From Diospyros lotus (Eukaryota; Streptophyta; Magnoliopsida; Ericales; Ebenaceae): DNA of 64,000 bases. Where the stretch lies: the NCBI RefSeq assembly GCF_014633365.1, contig NC_068352.1, forward strand, positions 17,579,310 to 17,643,309, given 5' to 3'. Shown here one piece after another: positions 1-51,120 of this stretch. Below the pieces are notes generated by a model that saw only the letters and a list, made by a program, of their open reading frames with translations, did no database searches and was not told where the DNA came from. The first letter of the stretch is position 1. The number at the start of each line of letters is the position of its first letter. Position numbers and translations under genes: made by a program.

Positions 1-510
1 ACGAAGAAGTTGAATGGACAAAATTATTCCACTTGGTCATCTGCAATTGAAATTTGGTTTCTTGGATATGGCCTTGAGGATCATTTATCAAAGACCATTT
101 TAACTATTCCTGAGGGAGATCAACCTCTTTAGCGAAAGGTGGATGCATAGTTTCTAAGTTTATTGTGGTAGATTATTGAACCGACCTTGATGCCTATATT
201 TCGACCTCTTCGTGAGTGTAGTGCTCTATGGACTCGGGCTCGTGAGCCATATACGAGTGACATCACTCGTATTTATGATGTGATTGGTGCTTTGTCCAAT
301 TTACAACAGGCTGATTTAGATATGACCACATATTTGGGTAAGCTCCAAGCTTCCATTACCGATTTTAACAAGTTGATGCCCTTCAATACAAATATCAAGA
401 AACAACAGCAGCAGCGTGATCAAATGTTTATTGTACCTAGAGATCACTCAGCCTTTGCTACTACCCAGACTGATCATGGTCGTCGTGGGGGTCGTCCTGG
501 GGGTGGGAAT
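1..510 (+). pseudogene. Copia-1 gag, N-terminal part (broken)
   Basis: Plus-strand remnant of a Ty1/copia gag, the capsid-like protein. Frame 1 opens with KLNGQNYSTW, the conserved start of plant copia gag proteins, and stops at 130-132. Frame 187-510 continues with gag helices (DVIGALSNLQQADLDMTTYL). The piece stops at 510 because a gypsy LTR is inserted there. Gag resumes at 3267 with a zinc knuckle. The gag start codon and 5' LTR lie outside the window. One stop and one frame change show it is dead. The copia assignment is firm; the lineage is not determined. Confidence 0.8.
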
Positions 511-3266
511 TGTAACACCCCGCTCCAACCGAGCGGCGTTATAAATGCGGAAAACATCATCATGGATTTCGGGGATATATTTTTTTTCATAAATATATAA
601 TATAGCGTCTGTACGTATATAGTACACCAGGTAAGTTCCCAGAACAGAGAAGGGGGTCACAAAAGGACATACTTAAATACCAAGTCTTTCCTTAGCCAGA
701 ACTTTCTTAGACATGCACTTCCACTACATAACACTTAAATCCATAACTTTCCCGACAATCCCGATTACCTTCTCAGCACATCAAACTAAAATCATCAAGC
801 TAAGACAGGTAATATCATCATAAAACAAATGCGGAAGCTAGATCAAAACCTGATATGGTACATAACCGAAATCATTTCCTTCATAATATCCAAAACCGTA
901 CGATCGTCTAACATGACATCATCAAAATGAAAAGCATATAATCCAAAATACATGCTACGATCCACCTACAAGTTGCCGTCAATCCTCACCAATTCCTTTC
1001 CCTTTGGCACTGCTGTCTCCACCTAGAACGTTGAATATTCCAGGACAAAAGTCCAACAATTAGATGCTAAATCATCTAAGTGAGAATTCAAAAACATTTT
1101 TATGAATGTATGCAAGACATGAAACAACAGAAAATCATGACAAAACCCGGCCCAAGAGAATCCCACGCAGCACTTAACCCTAACCAGGGAAAATGCAATC
1201 TCTCTAAAGGCAACACAACTACATCGACACATTGGCAAAACACAGTCCTAGCTTAAAAGGGAGCAACGTCAATGCATGAACCCCGGGAATCACCCCGTCA
1301 TCATTACGTTCCCACTAAGAAGCTTAAGGAACACGTCAACACAAATTCTGGCCAAATGATGATCAACACCATCCTGGGAATCCACGTCCACATCAGAAAC
1401 AATACTACTGCACAAGGCATCTAGGGTGGTGCCTACTCGCAGCCCGCCACTTGCCAGTCCGGGTTGGTGTCCACTCTCAACCCCGCCATTTGACGATTCA
1501 CATGGGTGAATCCAAGTCGCAAAAGGGTATTTTCCCTTGGCATGCTTCCCGAGTGTTGTCACTTCAAGTGCCACATCATAAGTTGACATCCCATCCCATA
1601 TGAGAATCGTCAAGGCACCCTAACTAACATATAATCATCAAAAACCTATTTTTCTTACAATTTCCTTATTTTGTCCTTTTTTTGCCTCTAAAAATCCAAA
1701 TAAATATCTCTCAAACTATTTTCTCCAATCTTTCTTCACAACAAATCATAATAATCTATGAACTTTAAGAGAAAATTACTGAACTTACCTGGATGCTGCG
1801 TTTTCACGCAAAACAAGGCTGTTCGGTGCTAAAACCGAGACACTGGGAAGGCCAAACCCAAATATTTTTGCACAAGCCTCTAGAGCTTGATTTTAGAGAA
1901 ATTTAGCAATTTTTTTCACAATTTTTGGAGTCCGGACTTGCCCTCACACACCCCAACAAGTTGCTCCAAGCGCCCCCACTCACGGGGCCCAGCTAGTGCG
2001 TGTCCCATACGCGCCAGTCGTTTTCTTCCTCCAGCACGCCAGCAGCTCGCAACCCGCCTGGTTTTTTGGCCATATCTCCCTCATCCGAGCTCCGATTGAC
2101 CCCCCGTTTGAACTTATGGCTTCGTCTTTTCACCCTCTACCGGATAATAGCTTAAAATCCCACAAACGGATCCATTTTCAAACTACTCGAAGCTATTTTC
2201 TGGCGAAGCTCGTTTTTTCGACGAGGCTTTGGATCTCCCTCATCTCTCAACCAAAATGGCTCAAAATTTCCAGAATTGCTCCTCTAGACATGGGCAACAA
2301 AAGCCCCTTATCCGATTCTCCCAATTTATTCACAAACTCACGGATTTACAAAATTAATTTCTTCAAAGCATTCGACCACTTTTATTTATAGGCGACGCCG
2401 AGCTTCCAAACGCTCAAGGCTGCTTAAACCGACCCCTCTAAAGCTTCTACTACCCTTGGATCGACCCAATTGCATCAAATCCGACCGCAATGATGACTTT
2501 TGAAGCTTTCAAAATCCGGCCAAGAACTTGGTCGAAAAGCTTCCAAATCCGGCCAACCCAAGCTCCCTTGTCAGCCCAGACCCGACCCTGATGCATCCCC
2601 GACCCATTTGGCTCGATTCCCCACAGTCGGTAGGCCTTGGTCAGCGACCAAAAGCTGCTGGTCGGCCATGCCAAGTTGCTTCCAGCTTCATCTTTGCTAA
2701 ATTGCACTTTTGCCCCACCTAATTTTGTCTCTTATGCCTTGTCCCATTTTCACAAAGCCCCTGATCTTTCTCTAATTGCCAATACATCCCTCAAGTCCTA
2801 AAACTTCCATTTCCCCCTTGAAGATTCAAAAAAGTCGCCATCTCGACCTCCATCTAGCCAATTCGAAAAACTGCACTTTGGCCCGAATTTTCGTTTTGGC
2901 CGCAAACCCATTCGTTTCTTCCAAAAACCACTGAATGGTTGCTCTACATGCCAAATATGAACTTTCTCGGGGTTCCGTTGATTTTCTAGAAACCCCTTAC
3001 ATTAATTCAGTTTTACAGCCTATCCCGTAGCTACATTTTTAGCTGTACTGAAAACTATTTCTAATCCATTTTCTTTTGATGCCATAAATCATTTCTTGAA
3101 ATACTCGACAGTACTATATCATTTTCTTTAGGCATCTCGACTCCAGGGTACTCCCTGCAGTCGATTCGATTAATCTATCGGGCTATTCTAATACCTATTT
3201 TCCTCAAATCCCATTTTTCTAATAAAATACTCATTTCTCAATTACCCAAAGTTCTCAGGTATTACA
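511..3266 (-). mobile_element. Solo LTR of a Ty3/gypsy (Tekay-like) element
   Basis: A 2756-bp block bounded by TGTAACACCCC at 511 and GGTATTACA at 3266, so on the minus strand it starts TGTAATACCTGAGA and ends GGGGTGTTACA. Flanks are GGAAT (506-510) and GGCAT (3267-3271), a 5-bp target duplication with one mismatch. Copia-1 gag continues on the far side. I see no coding domain, primer-binding site or polypurine tract, so it reads as one LTR left after recombination. It shares the motifs GGAATATTC and TATGGCC with the other gypsy LTRs here. Short open frames inside are noise. The Tekay/Del assignment rests on terminal motifs only. Confidence 0.8.
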
Positions 3267-4335
3267 GGCATCCTCGGCCCCAATGCTCCTATTGTAATCA
3301 TCTTGGTCACACTCAAGAGACGTGTTATCGCTTATAAGATCGTCCACCTCAAGCAACCAGTACTGCTAACATGGTTGTTAGCGTTTCAGAGGGTTAAGCA
3401 TCTATCACACCCAGTGATTCCTCACCAGTGACTATCTCCAAGGGGGAGTATACTTAGTTCCTTAAGTTTCGGGCAACACAACAGGCCACTTCACCTATCA
3501 CATCCCTACTCACACTGGTAACCCTACTGCTTGCTTTACTAAGTCCTCTTCTCTTGGCCCATGGATTTTCGACTCCAGTGCCACTAATCATATGTCTGGT
3601 AATCGTTCTCTCCTATCTCATATTCAAACTTTGAAGTCTCTACCTCCTGTTACACTGGCTAATGGCTCTTACGCCTTAGTCACGGGTATTGACATAGCAT
3701 CACCCCTTCCTACTTTACCATTGTCATCCGTTTTACATTTACCATAGTGTCCCCTTAATTTACTTTTTGTTAGTCAACTCACTCGTAGTCTTAATTGCTC
3801 TATAACATTTTTGTTTGATTATGTTCTTGTTCAGGATTAGAGGACTAGATAGACGATTGGCACGAGGCTTGAGTCTTACGAACTTTACTATCTAGCACCC
3901 CCTACTTCATCAATGGCATGCACGACGACTACTTCCCCACTACAAGTCCATTGTTGGTTGGGGCACCCATCTCTACCCAATCTCAAGAAGATGGTTCCCA
4001 ATCTCTCTAGTATTTCTTCCTTAGAGTGTGAGTCTTGTCAACTTGGGAAGCATAGTCGTAGTTTTTTCCCGAGTAGAGTCAATAAACGTGGTAGTTCGCA
4101 TTTTTTAGCGGTCCATTCGGATGTATGGGGTCCCAGTTGTGTCAGTTCAAAAGAAGGTTTTTGTTATTTTGTAACCTTTATTGATAATTTTTCTCGAACT
4201 ATATGGCTATATTTAATGAAAAAGCATTCAAAATTGTTTTCTATCTTCATTACATTTTGTGCTAAAATTAGAACTCAGTTTAATATGCATATTCGTGTTC
4301 TTCGTAGTGATAATGCTCTTGAATATTTGTCTTCG
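3267..4335 (+). pseudogene. Copia-1 zinc knuckle, protease and integrase N-terminal part (broken)
   Basis: Continuation of Copia-1. A CCHC knuckle (C-SY-C-NHLG-H-TQET-C) lies at 3284-3325. A protease motif DSSATNHMSG lies at about 3571; the usual Gly of D-S-G is Ser. The GAG-pre-integrase/HHCC region (HCWLGHP ... CESCQLGKHSR) starts near 3950, followed by the integrase core with catalytic Asp in VHSDVWGP and a second Asp in LRSDNALEY. The open frame 3913-4356 runs past 4335 only because it reads into an inserted LTR. Several stops occur between 3330 and 3900. The integrase frame resumes at 37605, 33 kb away. Confidence 0.88.
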
Positions 4336-4682
4336 TGTCATGAACCTTGGAGATGAGCTAGGGTATGAAAGGAAGATCGAGAATAATAAGGGAAGAACTT
4401 GGGGAAGAGATCAGTTGGGAAGGAGAGAACAACAAGAAGATGAGGGAGGAGATCACCAAGAGAGAGAGAGAGGGAGAGAAATATTTGAGAGAAACAGAGT
4501 ATTCAATTCATTTTCAGCATGCCCTCTTCCTACAGCTGAGGCAATATATATATAGCCTTACTTAACTACCAAACAAAGCTCTCTAACCACATAAGCTACA
4601 AGACAAAAAGGGAAAAATATCCTAACAAACTATTGCAACCCTATTATAATGATGCCCTTCTATTGTTCCTTGGGCCATGATA
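4336..4682 (-). repeat. LARD-1 3' LTR
   Basis: 347-bp LTR. On the plus strand it starts TGTCATGAACCTTGG and ends CCATGATA (TCATGACA in the sister copies). It shares the variants ggagatgagc and tatgaaagg with the LTR at 37245, not with the LARD-2 LTRs, which pairs it with 37245. It carries a purine-rich GAGA stretch near 4450-4480 and TATATATATAG near 4544. Confidence 0.85.
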
Positions 4683-4699
4683 ATTCCCCCCTCCTTGAA
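4683..4699 (-). other. LARD-1 polypurine tract
   Basis: On the minus strand TCAAGGAGGGGGGAAT directly precedes the 3' LTR. The same tract sits at 31482-31497 in LARD-2. It would prime plus-strand DNA synthesis. Confidence 0.7.
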
Positions 4700-4700
4700 A

Positions 4701-5032
4701 GAGTTCTTATCCCCAATAACTTGCAACAAGTAGCCATTGCTTCATCCAATTCCCACCTTTTCTATCTGATTTATCTTTCCTCCTTTCTTTTTCTTTTTAG
4801 GCCTCTTCTTCTTCCTCGTTCTTAAATGTCCAAGATCAATCCTAGTCGTAATTTGGCCAAAAACTTCAATAAGAGTAACCTGATAGAGTTCAAGTTCAAT
4901 ACACTCACCTTCTAGAACAGCTGTCCAATCATGATCGGTCTCCACCTTAAGAACACAACCAGCCATTGGTTCATCCCACCCTGCAGTAGACAGCAACTTG
5001 GATTTTCCAATAGGAGTAAAAACCAACACAGC
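4701..5032 (-). pseudogene. LARD-1 coding remnant, C-terminal part
   Basis: Minus-strand open frame (ATG-to-stop part 4742-5029, 95 aa) with a very basic tail (RTRKKKRPKKKKKGG). The frame continues upstream of 5029 until the inserted element at 5033. The upstream part resumes at 11731: reading across, ...GKNTLA joins VLVFTP in frame once a short target duplication is removed. No known domain is recognised in this part. It is probably the 3' coding end of a gypsy-derived gag-only protein whose gag core lies at about 12,250-12,500. Confidence 0.6.
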
Positions 5033-7377
5033 TATAACGCCCCACTTTTCAAATATATAATGATGCTAAATACAAGCTAATATGGTATTCATTATATGCT
5101 AATAATGACCTCGGGCGCTATTGGAAACCTTTAATCAACGAAAGCGCTGGATCGAACCTGTAAGCTTAATAAAGGGGGTTTCCACTAGATTTTCTTCACA
5201 AGCACAAGTAATGCAAATGACTTTCAATACTCCAGAAAAACAAAACATGTCACTAGAGGTACAACAACTGTAGGACACTCACACACTAGGTAGCACGGAA
5301 ACAAAAATGGGAAACATTTCCGATACGAAACGGAAACACAAAAATGGCATTTTTCAAAAAAGTTAGGAAACGAAAAAGTGGGGTAAACTGTAATTTTAAA
5401 AAATATAGGGGTGTATGTGAAATTAATTTATAATTTATATGATATAAATAATATTAAGTTACAACTTGCAAACCCTAGAGTTACAGATCAAAGTTGCAGG
5501 ATTTTGGAGCAGCAAGAGAAGACCCATGCCGCCTCTCACCGGAGTGTTCTGCCACTGTCGCCGCCTATCTCGCCGTAGACGCATCGCCTCACCTCTCTCC
5601 CCATTCTGGCCACCGCCTCGCCTCTTACCCTCGTCGTTGAATGGTTCTGTTCGAATAACAATTCAAGATCCAGATTCGCTCCGCTATTCTTTCCTCTGTT
5701 CAATCTCAGCTGGGTTCTTTCTCGCCGTCTTTGGGGACGAAGTCGCAGTTTGGGTCTACGAATTCTGGCCTAAAAACCCCCAATTCTCTGACAACTGTCA
5801 CCATCCCTACTTCTAAAAACGAAGAAGACAGCTTGCTGAAGGTTTGGATTTGTCGCTGGAAACGCGTTTCTGGCCCATTTTTTTAAATTTCGAAATGGCC
5901 CGCAATTTTTCAAAAATTACACAAACGGCCCAAAAAAACATTTCGGGCCGTTTTTCACATTTTCAAAACGGGAAACGGTTCAAAAACACCAAAACGACAT
6001 CTCAAAGCCATTTTCGTGCTTCACAGCTCACACACACCTCTTACAACCATGAGTATCCTACTCGCTATTTACAATACATCATTTGGATTACAATGGTACA
6101 TAATGAAATAAAATCCAGAACTAGCTGCAAAACCCAAAGCTAGCCAAGCACCACCTCTTTGCCCTTGCTCAAACTGGAACCTGGATCACCTGACACGTCT
6201 AATATACCTGGGACGTCGAATATTCAAGGGGTATGAAACACCCGAGTTAGATTGCACCACTCTTTCGGCCATAACTCGGTCGTTTTAACTCCGATTCGAC
6301 CCCCGTTTTTTCCTATAGCTTTCTTTTTCCGTGCTTTACAGGATTATAAACTTAAATCGTACTTACCTCTGGGTTTTGGTGGCCTTTAACACGCTTTACG
6401 ATGCTGGCTCGGGAAACCCATCAAGGCTTTTCCTCCTTTGATTTCCGGCAACACTTCGACCTTTCAACACTTGTTTTCCTCTATTCAAACCCTTCCCCAC
6501 CAAGCCTTAATTTATAGAAGTGTTCATCCAATCCCATTTCGCCATTTACTACTTCAAAATCATGACTAATCATTGCTTTTTCCTTTTGGTGCCATGTGAT
6601 TTGTCCAAGTGTAATCTTGAGATTAAGCTCCATCATGCTTATACCACTTGTTGCCACAAGATTAGGCCACTTGGTATTTGAGATTTGAGTCTCATGATTG
6701 CTTTTCCAAGTGTCCCAACCCCATGGTGCCAAGTGTTATCTAGATTAGCCTTCATCATTACTTAGATTTTGAAAATTTAATTGTAATCACGACTCATCAT
6801 TTCTCCACCGTGTAGCACATCCCCAAGGTGCCAAGTGTCTAAAAATCATCACCCATCATTGCTTCGCCATGTGGCACATCCACAATGTGCCAAGTGTCTC
6901 ATTTTATAAACACATTTGGCCAATTATTTTTCACCACGTGTCTCGCCACCTCAAAGGAGTCATTATGCATCATCATGAGACCTTAGCTTAGCTTTCAAGT
7001 AACCCAATAGTTACTTCCCACATGTCCTTGAGGATAAGGTTTGGAGACTTTGGAGACTAAGCAAAGACTTAGAGAAGACAAAGACTTCAAGCAAAAACTT
7101 GGACTTGGACTTCAAAACGATCCAAAACTACATTTGATTGAAGTTTGAAATCCAAAAATATTTTAAAATTCATATCTTTTACACTAATTCCCAAGACTTT
7201 TGGTCAATTGCACTTTTACCCGAAATTCAATAATTACGACTTTGCCCTTGGCTCAGAAATGAACTTTTGCCTCAGGCTTCAATAATCCCTTGAAATGACC
7301 TATTTCCTCAAGTATCAGAACCAAATAGACTCAGGCATTACATCATATTTGATTCTAAAAAAATCTCGGATATTACA
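5033..7377 (-). repeat. Left (minus-strand) LTR of the inverted-LTR element
   Basis: On the minus strand it runs from TGTAATATCCGAGATT (at 7377) to GTGGGGCGTTATA (at 5033). It is 2345 bp, of which 749 are a later hAT-like insertion plus its duplicated target. By eye it aligns along most of its length to the reverse complement of 9339-11730, but lacks the counterpart of about 10,450-11,247 (junction near 6254). It duplicates a short piece of its start: two TGTAAT-type units about 35 bp apart, as in the right LTR. Confidence 0.88.
5287..6027. mobile_element. hAT-like non-autonomous insertion (741 bp)
   Basis: Flanked by a perfect 8-bp direct repeat TCACACAC (5279-5286 and 6028-6035), the hAT size. 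The partner LTR has an uninterrupted site (reverse complement near 11,470). Ends are imperfect inverted repeats: left TAGGTAGCACGGAAAC, right (reverse complement) GCTGTGAAGCACGAAAA. The centre is GC-rich with a coding look (5466-5816, 116 aa, Arg/Pro-rich) but no recognised domain. No transposase. Confidence 0.8.
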
Positions 7378-8752
7378 TCCCCCCCCCCTAAATGAAAATT
7401 TCGTCCTCGAAATTCCACCTCATTCCTCAAAATCATTGTGTCTCTAGAACACCTTCCCCAAGAGGTATTATTTCATTCCTCAAGACTCACATCAGGGTGG
7501 ATAGCATACCTGGCTTGGTGTGCCTCGTTTAATATGATTTTCCTTAACTCTTGGCATCAGGCACATAAATTCCATCCAATATCCACAGTCAGGGTTTTTG
7601 ACCCAGTCCCAATTTTCAACACGTGACCATACCTTCAAGTCTTCTAAAATAGCTTGCCAAGTCTGTTCATCAGATGAGAGCGAATCACCAGGCTAGTGAC
7701 GGAAATAGATGTTCCATCAGGAATCACATCCTATGCCACAGGCTAAAAAAACCTCCACTAATCCCCACTCTCGGGTCAACAGAACAGGCTCATTCCCGCA
7801 TCAGCCACCACGTTCACTTTCCCAAGGTGGTACTAGATCACACAATCGCAATCCTTCAAACTCCATTTATTGCCGTAACCCCACATCCAAGTCCCATGTG
7901 AGAACAAGCACCTCAAGCTTACACGATCCCCAAAGGCTTCGAAAAATTTTCCCTCTTCAAAGGCCAACTCTTCTCCTAGGTGCGCCAAAGCATGCCTACT
8001 ACTGCATCAGCTTGTATTACTAAGGTAAGATTCGGGATAATCAAATCAGAGCCAATTACTCACAATTCCTGGGGAGTACAACAATCTGCATATCAAACCG
8101 AAGGTCAAGTCGGTAACCAGAATAAAATGTCCATTCCCCAAAGGCCAAGTATGAGAACCGCAATCCCATGGCTTGCTATTATGAGAAAACACATTTTCTA
8201 AGCAAGCCACAACACCTCTCATGCCTACATCGGGGAAAACCTACCACTCATAGCTACAACTTATCCCGACCTACGTATGCAATTACCATTCCATCACCCA
8301 TTTCTCGAACTTTCGAATCCCCGAGCCCACTCAGCACATGATGCAGTAGTCACACTCCTGGTACCAACACTTTCTCATACTCGAATTCTCATGAGGAGAA
8401 CAAGTCAAATATCGGTCCACAAATACAATCACAAACTAATCTAAGTATGATTTGAACACCTCAATCATCAACTCACAAGGGTTACAGGTGCGTTTGCTAA
8501 CCCCAAATATCATTACTGACTTCTCATAAAAATTCGTAACAAGGTCTAGAGTAGTCTTGTTATATCTTCCTTTTCATTCTTAATTACATTCCTTAAAGTC
8601 ACAAACCATACTCAAGGTGACAATTAACACACATTAACACACAACTACCTAACTTACTATTTGGCATACTTTCTTTGGCCAAATTATAGGTTGATACATT
8701 TATCATCATTCCTTGGGTGATGTGAATAGGCTGACTGGGGACCGACTAACAC
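7378..8752 (-). pseudogene. Gypsy pol remnants, polypurine tract and 3' end
   Basis: Minus-strand internal region of the inverted-LTR element. A run of 12 Gs followed by ATGTAA lies against the LTR at 7378-7390; just upstream is TTTCGAGGACGAAATTTTCA, the usual 3' end of Tekay-type plant gypsy elements. Around 7480-7560 a fragment NEAHQARYAIHPD resembles the H2C2 zinc-binding N-terminus of gypsy integrase. Around 7790-7830 KVNVVADA matches the end of gypsy RNase H. The rest is full of stops and internally deleted. Plus-strand open frames here are shadows. Confidence 0.7.
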
Positions 8753-9338
8753 TTGCACAACCGCATTAAGGAGGATTCGTGGTACCTTGCACGACCGTCG
8801 AGTGTCATTAGCACATTTTCCCGTCAACTAGAACACACAACCTTGCTGCGGCTCTCAGCCTCCTTCGTTCGTCCGAGATTAACTGACTTCTCTCCTTTGT
8901 GGGCAATCCTTAGAGAAATGGCCGACCAGTCGACAGTTGAAAGACAGGGGTCCTTTCGAGCAATCTCGAGATATGTGGTCATTTCCTCCACAGGTATAGC
9001 ACCTTTGGTTCCCTCTTTCACAAGGTTTTCCCGGATGAAATTTTTGGCATATGGGGCAGTTCTCCTTGTTTTTGAAATTTTCTTTTTGAACCCCAAGATC
9101 ATGTTTTTTCCCAAGTTTTTTGTCCTTAGGTTCCTGGATTTCCGTCCTTAGGGCGTTCATTCGGTGGAGGTTGCTTTCCATGGTCAGGGCTTATGAAACC
9201 ACCTCTGCATAAGTGCATCCCCCTAAAGAGCTTAATGCTAGCTGAATTTCCAACTTCAACCCTCCAAGGAATTTTTGGGCTATTGCTTCCTCATCTAAAT
9301 TATAAATGGGCATGTACTTGATTAGCCGAGGATAAGGA
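8753..9338 (-). pseudogene. Gypsy gag C-terminal part with zinc knuckles
   Basis: Minus-strand gag remnant. Upstream of an ATG at 9181 the frame reads through IYNLDEEAIAQKFLGGLK-like gag sequence. The 100-aa frame (8879-9181) has CPICQKFHPGKPC and CYTCGGNDHISRDC, the latter a canonical CCHC nucleic-acid-binding knuckle, then a second degenerate knuckle (FNCRLVGHFSKDC, first Cys changed). The N-terminal gag is missing: the sequence is cut at 9338 by the first base of an LTR in the opposite orientation. Confidence 0.8.
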
Positions 9339-14567: not shown

Positions 14568-14573
14568 AGTTTT

Positions 14574-35558: not shown

Positions 35559-35592
<34 letters not shown>

Positions 35593-37241: not shown

Positions 37242-37244
37242 ATT

Positions 37245-40035: not shown

Positions 40036-40263
40036 GAATACACATTACTTTATTCACAAACTCTATTATAGATTTTTACAAGTCTAAGATACCATACACA
40101 TATCTCTTTATTTATCTCCTAACCTTTCTATCAGATGTCTAATAAGTAGGTAGCTTCCATCATTGACCTACTAGGCATAAAATTAAATTGGTTCTCGAAG
40201 GCCTTGGTTTCTTTCCTCAACCTTCCCTCAATTACCCTCTCTCAAAGTTCCAAAGCATGGATT
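40036..40263 (-). pseudogene. RTE-type LINE reverse transcriptase fragment
   Basis: Read on the minus strand, from 40,263 downward: ALEL-stop-ERVIEGRLRKETKAF, ENQFNFMPSRSMMEATYLL, then after a shift KEICVWYLRLVKIYNRVCE. These align with 42,250-42,470 of the neighbouring LINE ([20 protein letters not shown] ... [20 protein letters not shown]). More decayed than that neighbour, so an older insertion in the opposite direction. Confidence 0.75.
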
Positions 40264-40349
40264 ATTAACTTGACCCCCAAGCCCGGATAAAGGAGGAGGG
40301 TTGTGTTAGGTAACCGATAGCCAACATAAAACTTAGTCGGATCCAAAAC

Positions 40350-41576
40350 ATGAACTCTAGACAAATTATGAAAAAACGTTTGGACGTGGGCGTAACCCTT
40401 CATAGCGACGTGCTACACTGCCCGCGTGTAGTGTCAGGTGAGCTAGGACCGCTGCATCGGCGCCCGGATGTAGTGACAAATGAGCAAGGGTTCCCACATT
40501 TGCTTGGACGGATGTGGGTAAAGAAGTTAGTCCAAAATCAAAATCAAAACCAAAACCAAAAACAAAATCAAAAACAAAATCAAATTCAAAGTCAAAACCA
40601 AAAACAAAATCATAGATTAAGGATTGGGTCATGGAACATAGGAACATTAACAGGCAAAGCTATGGAAGTGGTAGATGTGATGATTAGGAGAAAAATTAAT
40701 ATTATGTGCCTTCAAGAGACGAGATGGGTAGGGAAAAAAGCAAAAACTTTGTCAGAAAATGGATATAAAATATGGTACACAGGAAATGATCGAGCAAAAA
40801 ATGGAGTGGGGATCATTATGGATAAAAGCTTAGTAGATGAGGTAGTGGATGTAAAGAGAATAGAGGATAGGATTATTATGATGAAGGTTATTCTAGGAAA
40901 AATGACTATGAATATCTTTAGTACATATGCACCACAAGCGGGGTTAGGTGAGGAGATAAAAGCAAAATTCTGAGAGGACCTAGAGGGACTCATACAAATG
41001 ATACCAAGAGGAAAGAAAGTGATTATAGGAGGTGACTTAAATGGTCACATGGGTAGAGACGGAAACGGCTATAGAGAGGTACATGGAGGGTATGGATTCG
41101 GGAAAATTAATAATGAGGGTAAGTTTATTCTAGATTTTGCAATGGCATATGGACTCATCATAACCAATACTAGGTTCAAAAAACGGGACGAACACTTAAT
41201 CACATATAAAAATGTCACATCAAGCACCCAAATAGATTATTTCCTCATGAGACAAGAGGACCGGGTATGTTGTAGGAATTGTAAGGTGATACCGGGAGAG
41301 TGTTTGACTACTCAACATAGACTTCTAGTACTTGACGTCCAAGTAAGAAATTGGAAGAGAAAAAATCACATAAAACAAAATTCAAGAATCAGGTGGTGGG
41401 ATATAAAAGGGGAGAAACAACTAATCTTCAAAGAAAAAATAAGGGGTAGAAGAGAATGGAATGGAGAAGGACAGACAAACCAAATGTGGAGAGAAATGGC
41501 TAATGCCCTGAGAAACACAGCAAAGATAGTGCTTGGAGAGACAAATGGTAGAGCCCCTAACCTTAAGGAGTCTTAG
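40350..41576 (+). pseudogene. RTE LINE endonuclease (broken)
   Basis: AP-type endonuclease that nicks target DNA. Frame 40350-40973 begins with a low-complexity Asn/Gln/Lys tract, then LRIGSWNIGTLTGK (catalytic Asn), ICLQETRW-like IMCLQETRWVGK (catalytic Glu) and MNIFSTYAPQAG. TGA at 40971-40973. Frame 40998-41576 continues with IIGGDLNGHMGRD (Asp/Asn), TRFKKRDEHLITY, STQIDYFLMR and LTTQHRLLVLDV (the His). Ends TAG. Confidence 0.85.
40527..40617 (+). repeat. Low-complexity tract (caaaay)n in LINE
   Basis: About 14 units of six bases (caaaat, caaaac, caaaaa) coding alternating Asn-Gln/Lys-Gln. Just upstream of the endonuclease core. Confidence 0.85.
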
Positions 41577-41591
41577 TGGTAGAATGAAGAA

Positions 41592-43467
41592 GTGCAATTG
41601 AAAATTAAAAATAAGAAAAATTGCTATAAGGCTGTATATCAGTGCAACAATAAAGAAAATCAAAAAAATTATAAAGAATCAAAAAAGGCAGCAAAAAAAG
41701 CTGTTAGTGAAGCAAGGTCAAAAGCATACGAGAATCTATATAAACGACTTGATACAAAAGATGGAGAAAGGGATATATATAAATTAGCTAAAGCAAGAGA
41801 AAGAAAAACAAGGGATTTAAATCAAGTGAAATGCATAAAAGATGAAAATCAAAATGTATTAGTGAATGAGGGAGCGATTAAGGAGAGATGGAAGGAGTAT
41901 TTCACAAAATTATTCAATGATGATGGCGACACGAGTTAGGTTGGGACATCTTAGTAACTCCGAAGGAAATGTGAGCTATACATTTTATCGACGCATAAGT
42001 CCAAATGAAATAAGGCAAGCATTAAAAAAGATGAAAAATCATAAAGCGGTGGGACCGAATAATATACCAATAGAAGTATGGAAATGCATGGGAGAAGAGG
42101 ATATCTCCTGGCTAATGAAATTATTTAACGCGATTTTTAAATCAAAAAAAATGCCAAATGAGTGGAGGAAGAGTACTTTGGTCCCTATATATAAGAACAA
42201 ATGAGATGTTCAAAACTGTGAAAATTACAGAGGAATTAAGTTAATGAGCCATACCATGAAACTTTGGGAGAGAGTAATAGAGCAGAGGCTTAGAAAAGAA
42301 ACAGAGGTCTCAGAAAATCAGTTTGGTTTCATGCCCGGTAGGTCAACAATGGAAGCTATATACCTACTGAGGCGCCTAATAGAAAGGTATCGGGATCATC
42401 AGAAGGACCTGCATATGATGTTTATAGATCTAGAAAAGGCCTATGATAGGGTCCCTAGAGAAGTATTATGGAGGGTTTTAGAGAAGAAAGGAGTCCGAAT
42501 AGCCTATATACAAACCCTTAAGGACATGTATCATGGTGCAAAGACAAGGGTCAGAACATGCGGAAGGGATACTGAACCGTTTAAAATTACAATAGGATTG
42601 CATCAACGTTCTGCACTAAGTCCATACTTATTTGCTTTAGTAATGGATGAACTCACTAAAGATATTCAGACAGATGTGCCATGGTGTATGCTATTTGCAG
42701 ACGACATAGTGTTGGTGGATGAAACAAAAGAAGGAGTGAACACTAAGCTTGAGATATGGAGAAACAATTTAGAATCTAAGGGATTTAAATTAAGCAAAAA
42801 GAAAACAGAATATATGGAATGTAAATTTAGTAAGAATGCAAGAGTGAAGGATGTTATAATAAAATTGAAAGACCAAATCTTACAAAGAAAAGACTATTTT
42901 CGATATTTGGGATCAGTGATTCAAAAAGATGAAGAAATTCACGAGGATGTCACACATAGAATTAAGGCAGGTTGGCTAAAATGGATAAATGCATCGGGGG
43001 TGTTATGTGATGGTAAAATCCCATTAAAATTGAAAGAAAAATTCTATAGGACAGCCATAAGACCAGTTTTATTGTACGGCTCAGAATGTTGGTCAGTCAA
43101 ATACCAACATGAGCAAAAGACGAGTGTAGCGGAGATGGGGATGTTAAGATGGATGTGCGGCCATACAAGAAAAGATAAAATTAGAAATGAAGTTATTCGT
43201 AATAAGATAGGAGTAGTGCCAATAGAGGAGAAGATGAGAGAGACTAGACTAAGATGGTTTGATCATGTGAGAAGGAGACCAAGAGACGCTCCTGTGAGGA
43301 GAGTTGATGAAATAGAACAATTAATCAAAAAAAGAGGCAGAGGCAGACCTAAGAAGACTTTGAGGGAGACATTAAAGTTTGATATGAAGTGTATGGATCT
43401 CAACGAAGATATGACAAAAGATAGAAATACATGGAAGTCTGGAATTCATGTAGCCGACCCCACATAG
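41592..43467 (+). pseudogene. RTE LINE reverse transcriptase (broken)
   Basis: Three frames: 41592-41939 (Lys-rich linker), 41866-42204 (RT start: KAVGPNNIPIEVWK, PNEWRKSTLVPIYKNK, then TGA) and 42244-43467, 407 aa: [35 protein letters not shown] (Asp), [17 protein letters not shown] and the active-site [10 protein letters not shown] near 42,690. The C-terminal part ([20 protein letters not shown] [19 protein letters not shown]) is typical of RTE elements. It copies LINE RNA at the nicked target; broken here by one frameshift and one stop. Confidence 0.9.
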
Positions 43468-43510
43468 TGGGATAAAGGCTGGATATGTTGTTGTTGTAAT
43501 AATAATAAAA

Positions 43511-44027
43511 AGGAAAGTAGCATAAAGGATTTAGAGCTGAAAACTCACAGAATTAAACAGCCCTTTTTCTTATTTGAGAGAGAGAGAGTAGAGAGCTCCA
43601 GTGAAGAGGAATGCTCTACTCTAATTCAACTATTTATAGCCTCTTTCTCCAGCCTACTTACCATCTGAAAACCACACCCTTTTCTAGTTATAAGGGCCTA
43701 CATGCTGACAAATTACATTACAACAATTGTACACAAACTGATAATTTTGCATAGAAATCAGATGAATTATTGGTGGCATGCCACCAATAATGGGGGCTAG
43801 TCACCAATAATGGAATGTCCACCAATATTGTAGTCTTCCAAATGGAATGTTTCTCGGGAGGTTGGAAATGTTTTGCCAGGCACCAATAATTGATGTTTTA
43901 TTTATTTATTTATTTTTTTACACTTTTTCTAGCCTGGTGATAAGGTTGCCAAAATTGCTTTTTACTGAACCGATAAGGTTCACACAACTGACTTTAATTC
44001 TGATGCACGTCTTGCTGATTTTGGCTG
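43511..44027. other. No gene seen
   Basis: AT-rich. A (GA)n run at 43,574-43,589, ctatttatagcctc near 43,630 (TATA-like on plus) and three copies of caccaataat between 43,778 and 43,895. I cannot assign it. Confidence 0.5.
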
Positions 44028-44540
44028 TTATTGAGAGAATAATCCAAAATAGTCATCTCCATTTGGAATCAAGATCTGGCTCTTGAGTAGACCCATCTGA
44101 ATGGGTCGACCAAGCTTGATCAACCATTTGCTAGAGGATTTCAGCAAATTCTTCTTGGATTTTGGCCTGAGAGACAAACACTTAACTGATGTCAGAGGAG
44201 ACTGAGATCCTGAGATACTTCTGATTGCTTGTCTTTTTTCCATAAGAAAGGATTCTGCTGGAACCAATTTAATACTTCTTCCTTGTTGATCCTTGAGATA
44301 TCATAATCCCACCATTTAATTTTAATATGATTAACAAGACATTACTAGGATCTAATTTCATGAACTTGATATTCAAGGAGAAGAATCCATGAGACATTGA
44401 ATTGTTGTTGGCAATAACAGAACAAGGATGGATAAGTATGCCATAGGTCTGGTAACTGAGCCCCTGCGTTGAAGAGATCATAGCTTTTTTAACTGATGGA
44501 GGAAGGTTGGACCAAACTAATGCCACCAACTAAAGAGTTT
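44028..44540 (-). pseudogene. Unidentified coding remnant, possibly endogenous pararetrovirus movement-protein region
   Basis: Minus-strand frames 44269-44529 (VWSNLPPSVKKAMISSTQG, SYQTYGILIHPCSV) and 44028-44267 join in series with one frame break near 44,268. Composition and spacing look like real, decayed coding sequence. The closest impression I have is the movement-protein part of caulimovirid polyproteins integrated in plant genomes, but I cannot confirm any diagnostic motif. Its counterpart at 44609-45341 faces the other way. Confidence 0.35.
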
Positions 44541-44647
44541 TAACATCTTTTTGCAAAATTTCTTTGGCTGATTTGCAATCTTTTTGCAAAATTTCTTTTA
44601 CGCATTAATTGCAAATCAGCCAAAGCAATTTTGCAAAAAGATGTTAA
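44541..44647. repeat. Inverted repeat at the junction of two coding remnants
   Basis: Arms of about 39 bp: taacatctttttgcaaaatt at 44,541 and its near-complement ending aattttgcaaaaagatgtta at 44,647, spacer about 29 bp. Each arm, read outward, encodes KSAK-E/A-ILQKDVK, so it is coding sequence repeated in mirror image. The spacer repeats ctttttgcaaaatttctttt once more. Confidence 0.85.
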
Positions 44648-45341
44648 AGATCTTGCTGCAAAACAAATTTTTGCACAATGGCAAGCCTTATTAGCTTATC
44701 TTTGATTTTGATATTTAATACATCAAAGGAGATTCTAATTGTCTTCCTAGCTTCTTAACTCGCAAGTTCCTACAGAGGAAAAAATATGAGGAGCATTAGT
44801 CCTTATCATGTCGTCATCAGATGAAACATCTGTCCAAGCCCAAGATAATTGTCTGGCTAGCCCACAGCAAACGGCTGATGGTAAAGGCATATTAAATCCA
44901 TTATAGCTGGAAGCTTTGCCAAAAAGACCACAAACCCATAAAATAGTGATCTTACGATCCCTAAGGGAAAGATATAAGATGGGAGATCCAACCATTGGAC
45001 CCTAATCAGAAGAAGTTAAATTTCTCTATTTAGTGGAATATGGGACAGCTGACCCAAAGTTTTTATATAAAGAACTTACAGTCAAAATTCCCCCATTAGA
45101 ATTTTCAATAAATGAAAAAAGACGCAAACAAATTGTCCGAGGATTTCACCCCGGCAACATTTTCCTTCCTTCAGAAATTATCAATGATATTGCTATCAGG
45201 GTTGCTATGGGGGAGTCTCTTAAACAAAAACTTGATGTGGTACATCTGGGAAATCCAGATGAAAAACATCCACAAAAAGATTTTGATACTAATCACAGTT
45301 TGTTAACCTTAGGACTCTTAGATTATACCCCTAGGCGATAA
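44609..45341 (+). pseudogene. Unidentified coding remnant (mirror partner)
   Basis: Plus-strand reading: CKSAKAILQKDVKDLAAKQI from the palindrome, a gap with stops, then MSSSDETSVQAQDNCLASPQ from 44,809, two in-frame stops, ILRSLRERYKMGDPTIGP and EEVKFLYLVEYGTADPKFLY, and the open frame to 45341 (INEKRRKQIVRGFHPGNIFL). The minus-strand open frame at 44747-44995 is a shadow. Possibly the upstream part of the same viral-like protein as 44028-44540, separated by inversion. No function can be assigned. Confidence 0.4.
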
Positions 45342-46028
45342 AACCCTCTCCAACACTCTCGGATGCAGTGGAATTATAAGAATAGAAAATGAACAACAGA
45401 AAAGAAATTAACAGAATTGAGAAGATCAAACCGTAAAGGAAACACAACAGATTTATTCTGGTTCAAACCAATTTAATTGACTCTACATCCAATAGTCCAA
45501 CACCCCAATCGAGCAGCTTTTATTGAGAAGAAACTCATCAGTACAAAACCCAAGCCCTCTCTCAATCCTATCACTCAAGTACCATCCTTATTCACTCAAA
45601 GAAAGCCTAAGAACTCAATACACAAGCCTTACTTTCTCTAGAACAAAAGTACTCACAATAATAACCGAGAACTTGACAAGAGAGAAGATGATCCTAGACT
45701 GCCGCCTTACCCTCTTATTTATAGAGGAGGCGGAACCCCTTTAAAACTAACAACTATAGAGTATTTACAGTTAGACCCCCAAATATATATTAATTACACT
45801 TTGATTTAAAAAACCCTAACTGTCTAATTGTTTCCAGGCGAAAGACATCAACGCTCCATTGATCTTCCAATCGGAAAACTCTAGGCAAACCTCAACACAG
45901 TCTTTGCAGGACTCAGAAGATCAGCATGACAGATTCTTCAGAATAGAAAAGAAAAAAGAAAAAAAATATCAGTAACTCTTGTCCGTCCAACTTCTCCTAA
46001 ATAGGAGTCATCATCATCAGTAAAACCA
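45342..46028. other. No gene seen
   Basis: Mixed sequence with ttatttatagaggaggcgg near 45,716. Its style (short A-rich blocks, a TATA-like site) is compatible with an LTR or viral intergenic region, but I find no terminal repeats. Open frame 45523-45744 is not supported. Confidence 0.4.
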
Positions 46029-46108
46029 ACCATTAGAAATAAATTGAACCTATCAAATCAGATTGCTCCCCTTGACAACCATTAGAAATAAATTGAACCT
46101 GTCAAATA
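46029..46108 (+). repeat. Short direct duplication
   Basis: aaccattagaaataaattga occurs at about 46,029 and 46,077, followed in both by acctrtcaaat. Offset 48 bp. The second copy runs into copia coding sequence. Confidence 0.8.
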
Positions 46109-46987
46109 AACCGTGTGGCACACCAATGACCTCGAGCATGTCCTTGACAGATGAGGGTGAGAGAGATGTTTTCGGATCCATCTTTCTACAGAACTATTGT
46201 TGGTTCTCTTCAATACCTGACTTACACCCGGCCAGATATAGCCTTTGTAGTCAACAAGTAGTCAAGTCAATTTCTATCTTCTCCTAAGCAACAACATTGG
46301 TTGGCCTATAAAAGGTTATTGTGGTATCTTAAAGGGACTATTAATCTTGGTCTAGTGTTCACTCCATCACCTAAGAATCTGTCATTAACCATCTACACAG
46401 ATGCTGATCATGCAGGATGTAAGGTGACTAGGAGATCAACCAGTGGGCTATGTGTATTCTTTGGCCGTAATTTGTTGATTTGGGGTTCCAAAAAACAGTC
46501 AGTAGTTGCCAAGTCAGTAGGTGAAGCAGAATATAGGGTTGTTGCCCAAGGGGTGACCAAGATCTTGTGGCTAAAATCGTTGTTATCAGAGTTAGGCTAT
46601 CCTTGTACTCAAACTCCGATTCTTTGGTGTGATAATCTAGCAGCTAAAAGTATGGCTGAGAACCCTGTATTTCATTCTAGAACAAAGCACATTGAGATTG
46701 ATGTGCATTTTGTGAGAGAAAATGATGAAAATGGAGATATTGATATTCGGTATGTGCCTACACTTCATCAAGTGGCTGACATTTTTACAAAAGGGTTATC
46801 AAGGGATAGATTTGTGTTTTTATGTACCAAGCTGGGGCTCAAGAGGTCACCTATGTCTAACACTAACACTGATCCTTCTGCTGCTGTAACAGAAAATCTG
46901 CTGCCTACAATTACTACAAAATCTATTTCCTCATCATCTATGGAGCTTGATTTGAGGGGGAATGTGGATGACATAAGCTGTTGGTAG
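46063..46987 (+). pseudogene. Copia RT end and RNase H (third copia family)
   Basis: [19 protein letters not shown] near 46,110, then [16 protein letters not shown] in another frame near 46,210 (RT connection), then the open frame 46301-46987: YKRLLWYLKGTINLGL, LTIYTDADHAGCKVTRRSTS (RNase H Asp), SVGEAEYR (Glu), LWCDNLAAKSMAENP (Asp), RTKHIEIDVHFVREN, QVADIFTKGLS. The C-terminal end ELDLRGNVDDISCW overlaps the polypurine tract and LTR start, as usual in this copia type. The gag, integrase and RT palm are missing. Confidence 0.88.
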
Positions 46988-47227
46988 CAGGCTGCAATTG
47001 TGCTCTTAGTTGCAGCTGATTATATTTGTTATAATTGTTATAATGATTAGTTAGGCAGTTAGGCAGTTCATAACTTGTTGTATATATATATAAGGATCAG
47101 TTAGTTCTCTCAATGAATTGACTATCATTTTATTCATTCATTTCAATAACATTTCCTGAGGTATTTTTCATCTCTGGTTGTTCTTATTTTCAATTGTGAA
47201 GCTCTCACTTCAGCCTAGATCGTGACA
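46963..47227 (+). repeat. LTR of the third copia family
   Basis: After the polypurine tract tttgagggggaa the sequence TGTGGATGACATAAGC begins; the likely end is GATCGTGACA at 47227 (265 bp). It contains tatatatataagg near 47,080 as a TATA box. The end is inferred from TG...CA only. The next base enters ARPC1 intron sequence. Confidence 0.6.
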
Positions 47228-47502
47228 ACTTCTCAGCTCTCACCCTCAAAACCTATCTCATTAATAAGTCTACCAATTTGAAAAATCATTTACATAGAAC
47301 TTCCATAAAGGTTGAAGTCTAACATAACAATAGTAAAAGAGACCACAAAAGCAACATAGTCTAACAAACCAAAAAGGAGCAATAAAAAGAAAACAAGTCA
47401 CAAATATATGTCCAAGAAACATATATAGTAAGGTGCAACATGGTACAGCAAATGAAAAGCAACAAAAATAAACACACCATTGAAACTTAAATTGCACCGT
47501 AC
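47228..47502 (-). other. Remaining part of the following ARPC1 intron
   Basis: T-rich on the minus strand, as usual for a plant intron, and open-frame free apart from a fortuitous read-through. It ends at the copia LTR. Confidence 0.6.
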
Positions 47503-47588
47503 TTTTTGAAGAACATGTTTCTTCTCCCACCTCTCTTCAACAAATTTATAAATGTGAACTTCATTATTGTTTGGGCAAAATGCAATCA
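47503..47588 (-). other. ARPC1 second coding exon
   Basis: Acceptor TCTCCTTTGCAG, then TG ATT GCA giving IAFCPNNNEVHIYKF and WEKKHVLQK, donor GTACGG at 47502. 86 nucleotides, which with the preceding single base keeps frame. Confidence 0.88.
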
Positions 47589-49188
47589 CTGCAAAGGAGA
47601 TAACCATTTATTTCAAAAAAAATTAATGAGTAAGAAAATAACATTCATTAAAGGGCTGAAAAGTGTGATACATGAACAAAGATATGAGAGCTAACTACCA
47701 ACCTATCTAAAATAATATCATCCACAAAAAATAAATAAATACATAAAAAGGCAAAGAAAATCATACAAAAGGTCGATCTTCCAACAACAACAAGCAAAAG
47801 GAAACATATTTTTCTAAGTTATAAGAAAAATGATACAATACAAAAAAAAAAATAATAATAATAATACAAGTTAACTATGGACTTTCAAACAGAAATGATT
47901 TGCAAGCCAGAATGCATATTGCCAACCCAACCTTGTGAGAGCAAGACTTGGTGTCTTGTGTTTTAATTGCTGACTCCAAGATGTTGTAGTGTCATATTAG
48001 ACAGAGGGACTTCTCACAAACTTCTATTTATCCATCATTCATCTATGCAACTATATTCTATTATTTTTAAACTTGTTGAACGCTTCAAGGAAATTCATTT
48101 CCAAATCTAGGACATGATTATCCATCACCTAAACAAATTGCAGCTCTAGCACAAGTTTAGAGAAATAAATTGGAAACCCCCATACTATAACAATAATATG
48201 AACTACTTTAGTCCTTCCGCAATTTTTAACTTCAAAAACTATGAAAACTAAAAACATACAACTTGTTCTTAACTAAAGCCTTCTAATATATGATAGAATT
48301 TTTTGTTCATGTTTCTTTTGTAATATGCACATATATATATAATGTAAAATATAATCTCACTATTTTAGTATAGTAAAATATGAACATCTAATTCATATAA
48401 ATGAAGAAGATCTTAATTTTCACATCCACGCTATACATAATAAATATAATATGCATGTGACGTGTTGTGTTATCTCCTCATTTTTTTTTCAACTTATCAC
48501 ATTTGCATGTCCACTAAGTCTCCTTTTTCTTTGGAAATTACTATTATTCATGTCATATATGTATCATTAATATGTACATATTTCTGCTTTGGATACACAT
48601 CATGAGCTCCCAAAACGATTCCAAAAACAAAGGGAGCATATTAGAATAGCATGTAAATTACTGCTTAGATAGAACTGCAGACTGACAGTAAAATTACTAT
48701 ATCATAAAGTTATACAAAACAAAACAAGAAAGAAGGCACTGCAAAAACTGTACATAAATGCAGAAACCTCCCCGGCTTTCACAGACAGTCAAAATAAATG
48801 CAAACAATTCCAATAGATATCATGTTTCTGAGATATTTTATCTACAACTTGTGTTTGGATTCAATTACAATGTAGAAAAGGAATTCTATTGATTTTGTTT
48901 GATTGATAAGGATGTCAAAACCCCAAGGATATACTAGAAATAGCATATTACATGTATTGTAGTAAGTTGTACCTTGTTGTATTGTAGCTGTTGTACCTTT
49001 CAATTGTCATTGTAACTAAAAGGCAGACAAGCCTATAAATAGGCTAAATCTTAGAGGATAAAGGTATTGATGAATGATATCAGATTTCAAGTCTTTTCTC
49101 TCTACAATTCTCTCCCGAATTCTCTCTGATTTCTCCCTATTCTTTCTGTTTCTATCTGTTCTTTCTCAATTCTCTCTCTATTCTTCCT

Positions 49189-49244
<56 letters not shown>

Positions 49245-51120
49245 ATTTCTACCAATTTCCACTCAAAACCCTAGGTTAAACCTAGGATCTGACAAAGGAA
49301 TTGGAAAAAAAATATTTATTTATATTGGTATCCCTCTAGAAAGACTACATTGATCAAAAAACAATAATAACTAGGAATTAGGTTATAACAATAATGTTGC
49401 TCTTTTTTTAATATAAAAAAAACAACTTCCAAAGATAATTCTTTGTTTCATTCAACTGTGTGATGAAACATAACCATATCAATTATCTTCATCAGGAAGG
49501 GCATCCAGTTTAAATTTTTGCCACATTGTCCTTTTGCATGAATTTGTATTGTCATGTGACTTTTAGGAGTCAATTGACATTTTGAATGTTGTACTACCAG
49601 CCCCAACTTGGTTAGGATAAGGTGGACTTGATGTTGATGATGATGATATTCAACCAAGCTAAATTATTCATTGATTTCTAGTAAGTTGGAAGTTGAATTA
49701 CCATACAAGAAATAAAAATCATCTACTCAAGAAATAAATAAACAAAGAAGGAAATGGAATGTACTAAAACAAGTATTTTTTTTTCTATATTTTTCCCTAG
49801 AATAATATTCTCCATAAAATTTCCTAGCTTGTCCCACGTCATTATGACAATTTAGTTTCATCAAGTGTTGTTAGGAGAACGTATGAAAACTTCAAAAATA
49901 TAAACCCGGTGAAGTAAACACACATCAAGCATGCAATTATGACTATGTAGTGGTAATTTGATCACCACTAAAGCTTGGATATTCTTTAAAGAAAAAGATA
50001 AAGGGCACATTGCAGTAAAAGCTTAAGAATCTCTTTCCCAGCAATTTACCTATAGTGTATACCTAAATGAAAACAAACCACCATCAGAATTAGAAATATG
50101 AGAACTTATAATTTCTTAAAACAAGTATCTAATGAAGCATGAACAATACATGCATCAAAGAATTTACTGCTTAATCATAACTTCTAATCAAACAAAATAA
50201 TTTTTTGTCCCAAATAATAGGATGCATTAATTGCCCCATCACCTAAGTCAATGACACGCCCACGAAATTGCAAGTATGAATAGGATTGACCCACAGAATA
50301 ATAATACAATTAACAATAAATAGAACAGCATTTAATAATTAAATCAACAGTCATAATAGCAATATATTAATGAGAACCCTTCAAATTAAGTCAATTTGTA
50401 ATTAAGTCATTTTGATGGGACAATTTTGTCCAAATGGCACTGACACAGCTTCATCCAGAGGGGATCACCAAATTGGTATTCTACAATTATAGTATAATAG
50501 TACAGATATTGACGATGCCTCTGATTACTTCAGCTCGCGTTTTCAGGCATTATGAATGAGGAATTAAAATAATTACCAGTCAAGCAAATGAACTACTTGT
50601 CTTTTCGATCAGGATTTAATAAGTAGGTCACAGAAAATGCAACAGTTACACTGATATGGATAAAAAAAAAAAAACTAAAAAATGCACATGCTTAAAGATT
50701 CAAAGGGATATTGAATGAGTAAAAGACGGTACTGGAGAAGTCGGGACTCCAAGCATGGCAAGTGATGCACGGAGCCAACTGGTGAACAGCAATTGCAGCC
50801 ATTTTACCTGCAGCACGCAAGAAAAGAACACGGGCAGAGAGAAAGAAAATCAGAGATTTGTTAGGGTTTCCCGTTGGAGCCGAATCACTGCTCGAAATCG
50901 ACGTAATCTGTAACAATTTCGTCGTATACTACGCTTACGTGGCGATAGGAAAGAACACAAGGATGGAAAATGAAGATTGAAAGAGTGTTGGGAGGCGAAT
51001 TGACAGAGATCGTTACCTGTCAGCAGATCCGAACGGAGAGAGTGGAGGCTGGAGGTGGAGGGTGAATCGAGTAAGGAATTACGTGCAAGAGAAGAGAGTT
51101 TTTTACCAAACACGAGAAGA
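47503..51120 (-). CDS. ARPC1: ARPC1, Arp2/3 complex subunit 1, 5' exons only
   Basis: Subunit 1 (p41) of the Arp2/3 complex, a WD40-repeat protein that helps nucleate branched actin in the cytoplasm. Exons on the minus strand: non-coding 51,017 to about 51,120; 50,733-50,807 with ATG at 50,802; 47,503-47,588. Introns obey GT/AG. The join between the two coding exons falls inside a codon and gives HAWSPDFSMIAFCPNNNEV, then HIYKFVEERWEKKHVLQ, the expected start of plant ARPC1, ending just before the IVSGIDWS-type part of the first WD repeat. That makes 52 of roughly 380 residues. No later exon is found to the left: the next intron is entered by a copia LTR after 275 bp. Either a very long intron or a truncated gene. 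No frame lesion in the visible exons. Confidence 0.88.
48913..49294 (+). mobile_element. Solo LTR (382 bp) in ARPC1 intron
   Basis: From TGTCAAAACCCCAAGG to GGATCTGACA, with perfect 5-bp target duplication AAGGA at 48908-48912 and 49295-49299. It has tataaataggc near 49,033 as a TATA box. It contains a long CT microsatellite. No internal region. Strand is inferred from the TATA position. Confidence 0.9.
49192..49242. repeat. (CT)n microsatellite
   Basis: About 25 CT units, with degenerate ttctctct repeats for another 90 bp upstream. Inside the solo LTR. Confidence 0.95.
49592..49650 (+). other. Possible SINE/RTE 3' tail
   Basis: actaccagccccaacttgg, then gataaggt and gatgttgatgatgatgat resembles the 3' ends of plant RTE-dependent SINEs. 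Too short to be sure. Confidence 0.3.
50733..50807 (-). other. ARPC1 first coding exon
   Basis: GTAAA then ATG (50802-50800) reading MAAIAVHQLAPCITCHAW, then SPDFS plus one base. Donor GTACCG at 50732. 70 coding nucleotides. Confidence 0.88.
51017..51120 (-). other. ARPC1 non-coding first exon
   Basis: On the minus strand ...GGATCTGCTGACAG then GTAACGATC gives a donor at 51016. The matching acceptor is TGCGTGCTGCAG at 50808, making a 209-bp intron in the 5' untranslated region. The transcript start is not determined; it is guessed at about 51,120 from CT-rich sequence. Confidence 0.6.

Follow-up and report, generated by a model that had tools for sequence, protein, structure and literature searches.

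In nested LTR-retrotransposon clusters of plant genomes, elements lie within elements, and target duplications and solo LTRs occur among them. Long introns filled with transposons are likewise already known in plants. In the excerpted text on Phragmites australis, introns of more than 10 kb occur in 2,473 genes and contain many transposon sequences, with expression reportedly unharmed (PMC11742667); the excerpted larch annotation gives 10,153 bp as its longest intron and mentions that spruces, poplar, grapevine and maize have longer ones (PMC9370799). According to the excerpts of a study on Arabidopsis, full-length transcription over the T-DNA introns of AG and LFY (>10 kb) requires IBM2, EDM2 and a heterochromatic state, and suppression was never observed for a GL2 T-DNA intron of more than 20 kb, a length that its authors consider may exceed the capacity of Pol II or of splicing; they also mention far longer human introns (PMC5364540). 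Arabidopsis IBM1 is governed by a methylated intron. In most Arabidopsis genes whose introns are methylated, by contrast, this methylation is, in the part of the source used here, not decisive for full-length transcription, with IBM1 and PPD7 given as exceptions (PMC11265718). Repeats make up 66.6% (PMC7048303) and 69.56% (PMC11524226) of Diospyros lotus assemblies in the excerpts concerned.

The ARPC1 locus described here is a further example of a long transposon-filled plant intron rather than a surprise. We consider it highly probable that the locus is an intact, expressed ARPC1 gene of D. lotus, or of a very close relative, in which nested transposons have swollen intron 2 to at least 47.5 kb, exon 3 lying to the left of position 1. 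The literature searches found no paper pairing Diospyros with ARPC1, and no usable precedent or rival on an ARPC1 intron with a retrotransposon or on Diospyros introns, retrotransposons or alternative splicing.

The window, that is, the whole stretch of DNA that was analysed, comprises 64,000 bases with a GC content of 37.6% and zero N. ARPC1 is the WD40 subunit of the actin-nucleating Arp2/3 complex and is defined as a complete seven-bladed WD40 protein. Its features in the window are as follows (a slash within a splice-site motif marks the exon–intron junction).

50808..51016, minus strand: probable 5′-UTR intron of ARPC1 (CAG/GTAACG ... CTGCAG/G), proposed by eye from splice consensus
50733..50802, minus strand: coding part of ARPC1 exon 1, with the ATG at 50802 and the donor A/GTACCG
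47589..50732, minus strand: ARPC1 intron 1, 3,144 bp, from the exon limits
47503..47588, minus strand: ARPC1 exon 2, 86 nt, acceptor TTTGCAG/TG, donor AAAAA/GTACGG, phase 0, placed by the frame join and tblastn
47228..47502, minus strand: the 275 bp of ARPC1 intron 2 beside exon 2, with the copia B boundary set by eye

Joined, exons 1 and 2 give 156 nt, or 52 stop-free codons encoding the peptide MAAIAVHQLAPCITCHAWSPDFSMIAFCPNNNEVHIYKFVEERWEKKHVLQK, and they are bounded by GT donors and an AG acceptor, which bears out the preliminary description of these two exons as intact and in frame. In a search of the PDB with this peptide, the top five matches were ARPC1B/ARPC1A chains (E 1.6e-11 to 4.3e-10); CIAO1 came next (E 1.7e-5), and 3dwl_C, a further chain named Arp2/3 subunit 1, reached E 0.67 only. 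By this sequence comparison the exons can be assigned to ARPC1, which they match beyond other WD40 proteins. Residues 1-52 are the whole ARPC1 coding content of the window; the remainder of the protein is seen in public D. lotus proteins. Neither intron 1 nor the start of intron 2 (47228..47502) resembles anything elsewhere in the window at E 1e-3. Intron 1 contains a CT microsatellite at 49190-49243 (by eye, limits approximate). Just upstream of the 5′ end of the gene, at 51691-52605, about 0.9 kb lies between imperfect inverted repeats (107 bases, 72%) and resembles a small inverted-repeat transposon near the promoter.

When the 52 residues were compared with about 5.8 billion proteins, 101 matches were obtained. 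Three of the 101 were identical over the full stretch, and all three are isoforms of D. lotus actin-related protein 2/3 complex subunit 1A (X4, X2 and X6); the other 98 showed at most 85% identity. The three isoforms run on from VLQK into exon 3, HDQIVSGIDWSARSNR (HDQIVSGIDW...), and further. A fourth isoform, X3, was found by a search from the downstream part of ARPC1, among the 120 of 349 matches listed, and consists of MLGVPTSP followed by the same exon 3. In the six frames of the window, MLGVPTSP can be encoded at one site only, the last 24 nt of exon 1:

50733..50756, minus strand: alternative ATG and first eight codons of X3 (MLGVPTSP), read in a different frame of exon 1 and reaching up to the donor of that exon

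Given that these codons end at the exon 1 donor and run into exon 3, X3 is read from the sequences as a predicted join of exon 1 to exon 3, in which the 86-nt exon 2 is left out and translation starts at the later ATG. The splice phases agree, exons 1 and 2 contributing 156 nt and X3 24 nt ahead of exon 3. Thus both donors in the window lead, in the public annotation, to one exon outside it: the annotation models join exon 2 to exon 3 in X2, X4 and X6, and exon 1 to exon 3 in X3. Annotated alternative isoforms of this kind rest, in the NCBI pipeline, on transcript evidence. The preliminary description had left two readings side by side, a gene whose remainder lies beyond position 1 across an intron of more than 47 kb, and a decapitated 5′ remnant whose promoter could drive transposon transcripts. 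The D. lotus proteins that match exons 1 and 2 exactly and then enter exon 3, together with the use of the exon 1 donor by X3, favour the first of these, and the D. lotus protein records lend no support to the second. Against this stands the nature of the isoforms, which are annotation models, and the annotated assembly may be without the stack of transposons. Provided that the annotated assembly matches the present one at this locus, intron 2 measures at least 47,502 bp.

Of the four D. lotus proteins examined (X2, X3, X4 and X6), not one has the full 378 residues of ARPC1. X3 is without residues 1-52, and X2, X4 and X6 (entries P0003, P0002 and P0004) are without an internal stretch around LDLSFCWAFGVKWSPSG, where they are partly out of frame; after this gap, X4 reads out of frame up to its end. 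The missing stretch and the altered reading suggest further alternative splicing or a weak downstream exon. The entry for X3, P0223, stands for three member sequences, which may include X1 and X5.

Exon 3 and the exons beyond it were sought in the window itself, and none was found on either strand. When 101 ARPC1 homologues, including three D. lotus proteins, were used as tblastn queries, strong matches to the window fell at exons 1 and 2 only. The D. lotus entry P0223 reached a best E of 1.7 in the window, and the exon 3 peptide HDQIVSGIDW is absent from its six frames. When ARPC1 residues 53-156 were compared with bases 1-47502 in 30-residue pieces at a step of 5 residues, the best match had 10 of 30 residues identical, the value also obtained in both of two base shuffles. 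The claim that the window holds no further ARPC1 exon to the left therefore withstood the tblastn, six-frame peptide and 30-residue-piece searches alike. The lowest E value outside the two exons, 0.013, belonged to a weak match at 9502..9203, which was dismissed as it contains a stop and is gag-like by eye; around this site (~9.2-9.5 kb), 87 matches from the 101 related queries fell into one 300-base bin.

The absence of exon 3 onward from the window is also what would be expected if exons 1 and 2 were a decapitated, recent duplicate of the ARPC1 5′ end beside transposons, with the intact gene elsewhere, and protein identity is blind to the difference between a very recent copy and the gene itself. 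We nevertheless regard such a duplicate as very unlikely. All four D. lotus ARPC1 entries (P0002, P0003, P0004 and P0223) list a 34,286,129-bp contig, and no second D. lotus ARPC1 locus appeared among the matches listed (101 of 101 and 120 of 349), although clustering of these proteins at 90% and, in the second search, the cut at 120 of 349 could hide one. Moreover, the splice sites and the reading frames of both isoform types are undamaged in the window, and a dead copy older than E2, an element of the stack that is not recent by its LTR divergence (below), ought to show damage.

On the far side of the 275 bp of intron 2, transposon features begin. The part nearest to exon 2 contains the following features.

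46110..47227, plus strand, antisense to ARPC1: copia B, a copia element present as its 3′ end and annotated and delimited by eye, with an RNase H-like ORF at 46262-46987 and a 3′ LTR at about 46963-47227
43509..46109, no strand assigned: transposon-like sequence separating copia B from the LINE, without a family label
40200..43508, plus strand, antisense to ARPC1: LINE with a reverse transcriptase ORF at 42205-43467 (RVT_1, E 4.6e-34), 5′ limit approximate and 3′ end by eye

The 3′ end of copia B, placed by eye at about 47,227, is in keeping with the earlier statement that retroelements start 275 bp into the intron. No partner LTR of copia B was found in the window, and its RNase H-like ORF had no Pfam match. 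Assignment of that ORF to the 3′ end of copia A, a second copia element, was considered and dropped, since an RNase H and the start of a 3′ LTR that belong to copia A lie near 39.6-40.0 kb. In the stretch without a family label, an ORF of 111 aa (45006-45341) had no Pfam match at E 0.01. The LINE is probably of the RTE type. Just after copia A, 151 bases at 40122-40271 match the LINE reverse transcriptase region at 42238-42388 in inverted orientation (74%) and are perhaps a second, older LINE fragment. Self-complementary, hairpin-forming repeats are present at 44533-44654 (122 aligned bases, 82%) and at 57954-58334 (388 aligned bases, 71%).

Most of the remaining stack is copia A and what has been inserted into it.

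1..510, plus strand, antisense to ARPC1: gag part of copia A, by eye; the element begins to the left of position 1
511..3266, no strand assigned: E3, a solo-LTR-like insertion in copia A (TGTAACACC...TATTACA), with flanks GGAAT and GGCAT (4/5)
3267..4335, plus strand: copia A gag zinc knuckle (by eye), gag-pre-integrase (PF13976, E 9.4e-13) and first part of the integrase
4336..37604, presumably minus strand: E2, an LTR element in the copia A integrase gene, 33,269 bp with further insertions, LTRs at 4336-4682 and 37245-37604
37605..40110, plus strand: remaining copia A integrase, SH3, reverse transcriptase, RNase H, polypurine tract and start of the 3′ LTR (~40009), 3′ limit approximate

The copia A ORF at 172-597 had no Pfam match. 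The start of the integrase matched PF00665 at E 2.3e-7 and 31.4 bits, slightly below the curated cut-off of 32.6, and the segment at 37605..40110 matched PF25597 (E 4.5e-18) and PF07727 (E 4.8e-15); the integrase end, RNase H and LTR start there were placed by eye. As position 1 seems to fall inside the gag of copia A, the 5′ LTR of this element should lie at most about 1 kb further left unless it is interrupted; this is predicted by eye from the way copia elements are usually laid out. The integrase reading stops at the left edge of E2 and restarts at its right edge. E2 is flanked by CTTCG and CCTCG (4/5), and its two LTRs are identical at 323 of 346 aligned bases (K2P 0.071; 90.3% counting gaps). 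This divergence indicates that the stack is not new, yet the ARPC1 exons are intact.

Within E2, several further elements were recognised.

8879..9190, minus strand: zinc-knuckle ORF of a further element (PF00098, E 1.4e-9)
14640..15947, plus strand: gag ORF of an LTR element, presumably gypsy (PF03732, E 4.7e-21)
19484..21121, plus strand: hAT transposase-like ORF of 545 aa with DUF659 (PF04937, E 2.8e-58)
23132..24870, plus strand: copia C fragment with a beta-barrel domain, gag-pre-integrase, weak integrase and SH3
31122..34121, presumably minus strand: E1, a 3.0-kb LTR element with an exact 5-bp target duplication, TCGAC

The strands of E1 and E2 are assumed from the position of the primer-binding motif. 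The LTRs of E1 are identical at 338 of 351 aligned bases (K2P 0.038; 93.9% counting gaps), and its empty site is preserved in the window: the joined flanks match 13916-13718 over 199 ungapped bases at 94.5%. Three nesting levels are thereby resolved, E1 lying in a repeat within E2, and E2 in copia A. Each of the two insertions combines a target duplication with an interrupted host element, as in nested LTR retrotransposons, the duplication being exact for E1 (TCGAC on both sides) and agreeing at 4/5 positions for E2.

The preliminary description had put the stack at no less than 47 kb. Its extent holds, as features continue to position 1, whereas family labels are missing at 43.5-46.1 kb and over much of the 33-kb insertion. 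Several repeats were noted within that insertion. Inverted arms at 5028-7380 and 9336-11734, about 2 kb apart, consist of pieces that are 89, 94 and 97% identical and are possibly opposed copies of one element or the source of a long hairpin RNA. A 1.6-kb repeat is present in inverted copies at 12967-14558 and 30382-34977, the right copy being split by E1; together with 16663-18250 and 27604-26022, this pair forms a loose palindrome of more than 20 kb. Among the 59 stack ORFs that reach 95 aa or more and lie left of 47.2 kb, a transposon domain was detected at E <= 1e-3 in nine on the plus strand and one on the minus strand. A bias in transposon orientation relative to ARPC1 was considered and dropped, as a count per element (about six antisense and three sense, by our own reading) is uninformative.

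The hAT ORF is stop-free and belongs to a family with recent copies in D. lotus. Over its full length it is 98% identical to D. lotus LOC127808959 (annotated as 696 aa) and 97% identical to two further D. lotus loci, and, of the 120 matches listed out of 1029, the best full-length one from outside D. lotus reaches 84%. The 98% match ties the stack to D. lotus; the matching loci sit on contigs of other lengths, so the stack is not thereby placed on the ARPC1 contig.

Assemblies tend to break in repeat-rich blocks, and a misassembly at about 47,228 could have set an unrelated block of transposons beside the 5′ end of ARPC1. The block is, however, orderly: E1 has its exact TCGAC duplication and an empty-site match, E2 interrupts the integrase gene of copia A cleanly, the copia B 3′ terminus looks normal by eye, and the window is free of N. 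The order of the block bears on the interior of the stack and not on the 47,228 junction itself. Taking these points together, we judge a false join to be most improbable.

If intron 2 does span the stack, as we favour, polymerase II would transcribe across the whole of it, and the exon 2 donor at 47503, or in X3 the exon 1 donor at 50733, would be spliced to an exon 3 located just left of the stack, beyond position 1; the present copy of the gene would then be the one expressed. The stack is probably methylated heterochromatin, and factors like Arabidopsis IBM2/EDM2 may aid full-length transcription over it. Most methylated-intron genes of Arabidopsis are, in the excerpts, independent of such methylation, so an IBM2/EDM2 step is not to be assumed for ARPC1.

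The proximity of the stack to exon 2 raises a second question, that of its effect on splicing. A stack 275 bp past exon 2 could weaken recognition of that exon and so give rise to X3, in which case ARPC1 output would follow transposon chromatin state. Such an effect would supplement the giant intron and not displace it. The exon skipped by X3 is exactly the one adjoining the stack, and the donors A/GTACCG and AAAAA/GTACGG deviate from the consensus AG/GTAAGT. The weak donors, on the other hand, would by themselves explain the skipping, and internal downstream exons are also skipped in X2, X4 and X6. Arabidopsis offers a parallel in IBM1, whose full-length output is decided by intronic heterochromatin, but in the excerpts of the same source most methylated-intron genes are without such dependence (PMC11265718). 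We think it unlikely, if conceivable, that the stack weakens exon 2 in this way, and quite doubtful that it works as a splicing switch, its chromatin state setting both exon 2 skipping and the amount of full-length ARPC1. A switch of this sort would mean that a persimmon cytoskeletal gene is tuned by at least 47 kb of intronic heterochromatin, well above the Arabidopsis intron sizes shown to work in the excerpted study (PMC5364540).

Should the giant-intron reading be true, the gene for a conserved subunit of the actin nucleator is still transcribed through nearly 50 kb of nested transposons, and the locus is a natural test of the reach of polymerase II and splicing in plants. The defined donors, the alternative isoform and the layered insertions would allow alleles, or Diospyros species, that carry the outer elements to be compared with ones that lack them. 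Its size, its conserved gene, the nesting order and an exon-2-skipping isoform beside the stack make the locus a usable test case; otherwise it is an ordinary outcome in a genome whose sequence is about two-thirds repetitive.

Compared with the known systems, the locus resembles Phragmites australis in that introns of more than 10 kb are lengthened by retained transposons, and the Phragmites genes are still expressed. It differs in being a single case from a eudicot tree, of at least 47.5 kb, with a nesting order that is partly resolved and with ARPC1 splicing known through annotation alone. As in the Arabidopsis introns dependent on IBM2, EDM2 and AIPP1, a long repeat-bearing intron must be read through and spliced. 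The ARPC1 intron is longer than those in the excerpted Arabidopsis reports (PMC5364540, PMC11265718), and methylation, H3K9me2 and IBM2/EDM2 dependence, which belong to the Arabidopsis cases, are putative here. Finally, the stack shares with nested LTR-retrotransposon clusters of plants the insertion of elements into one another, target duplications and solo LTRs, but, unlike those clusters, on the best reading it lies inside a conserved gene and not between genes.
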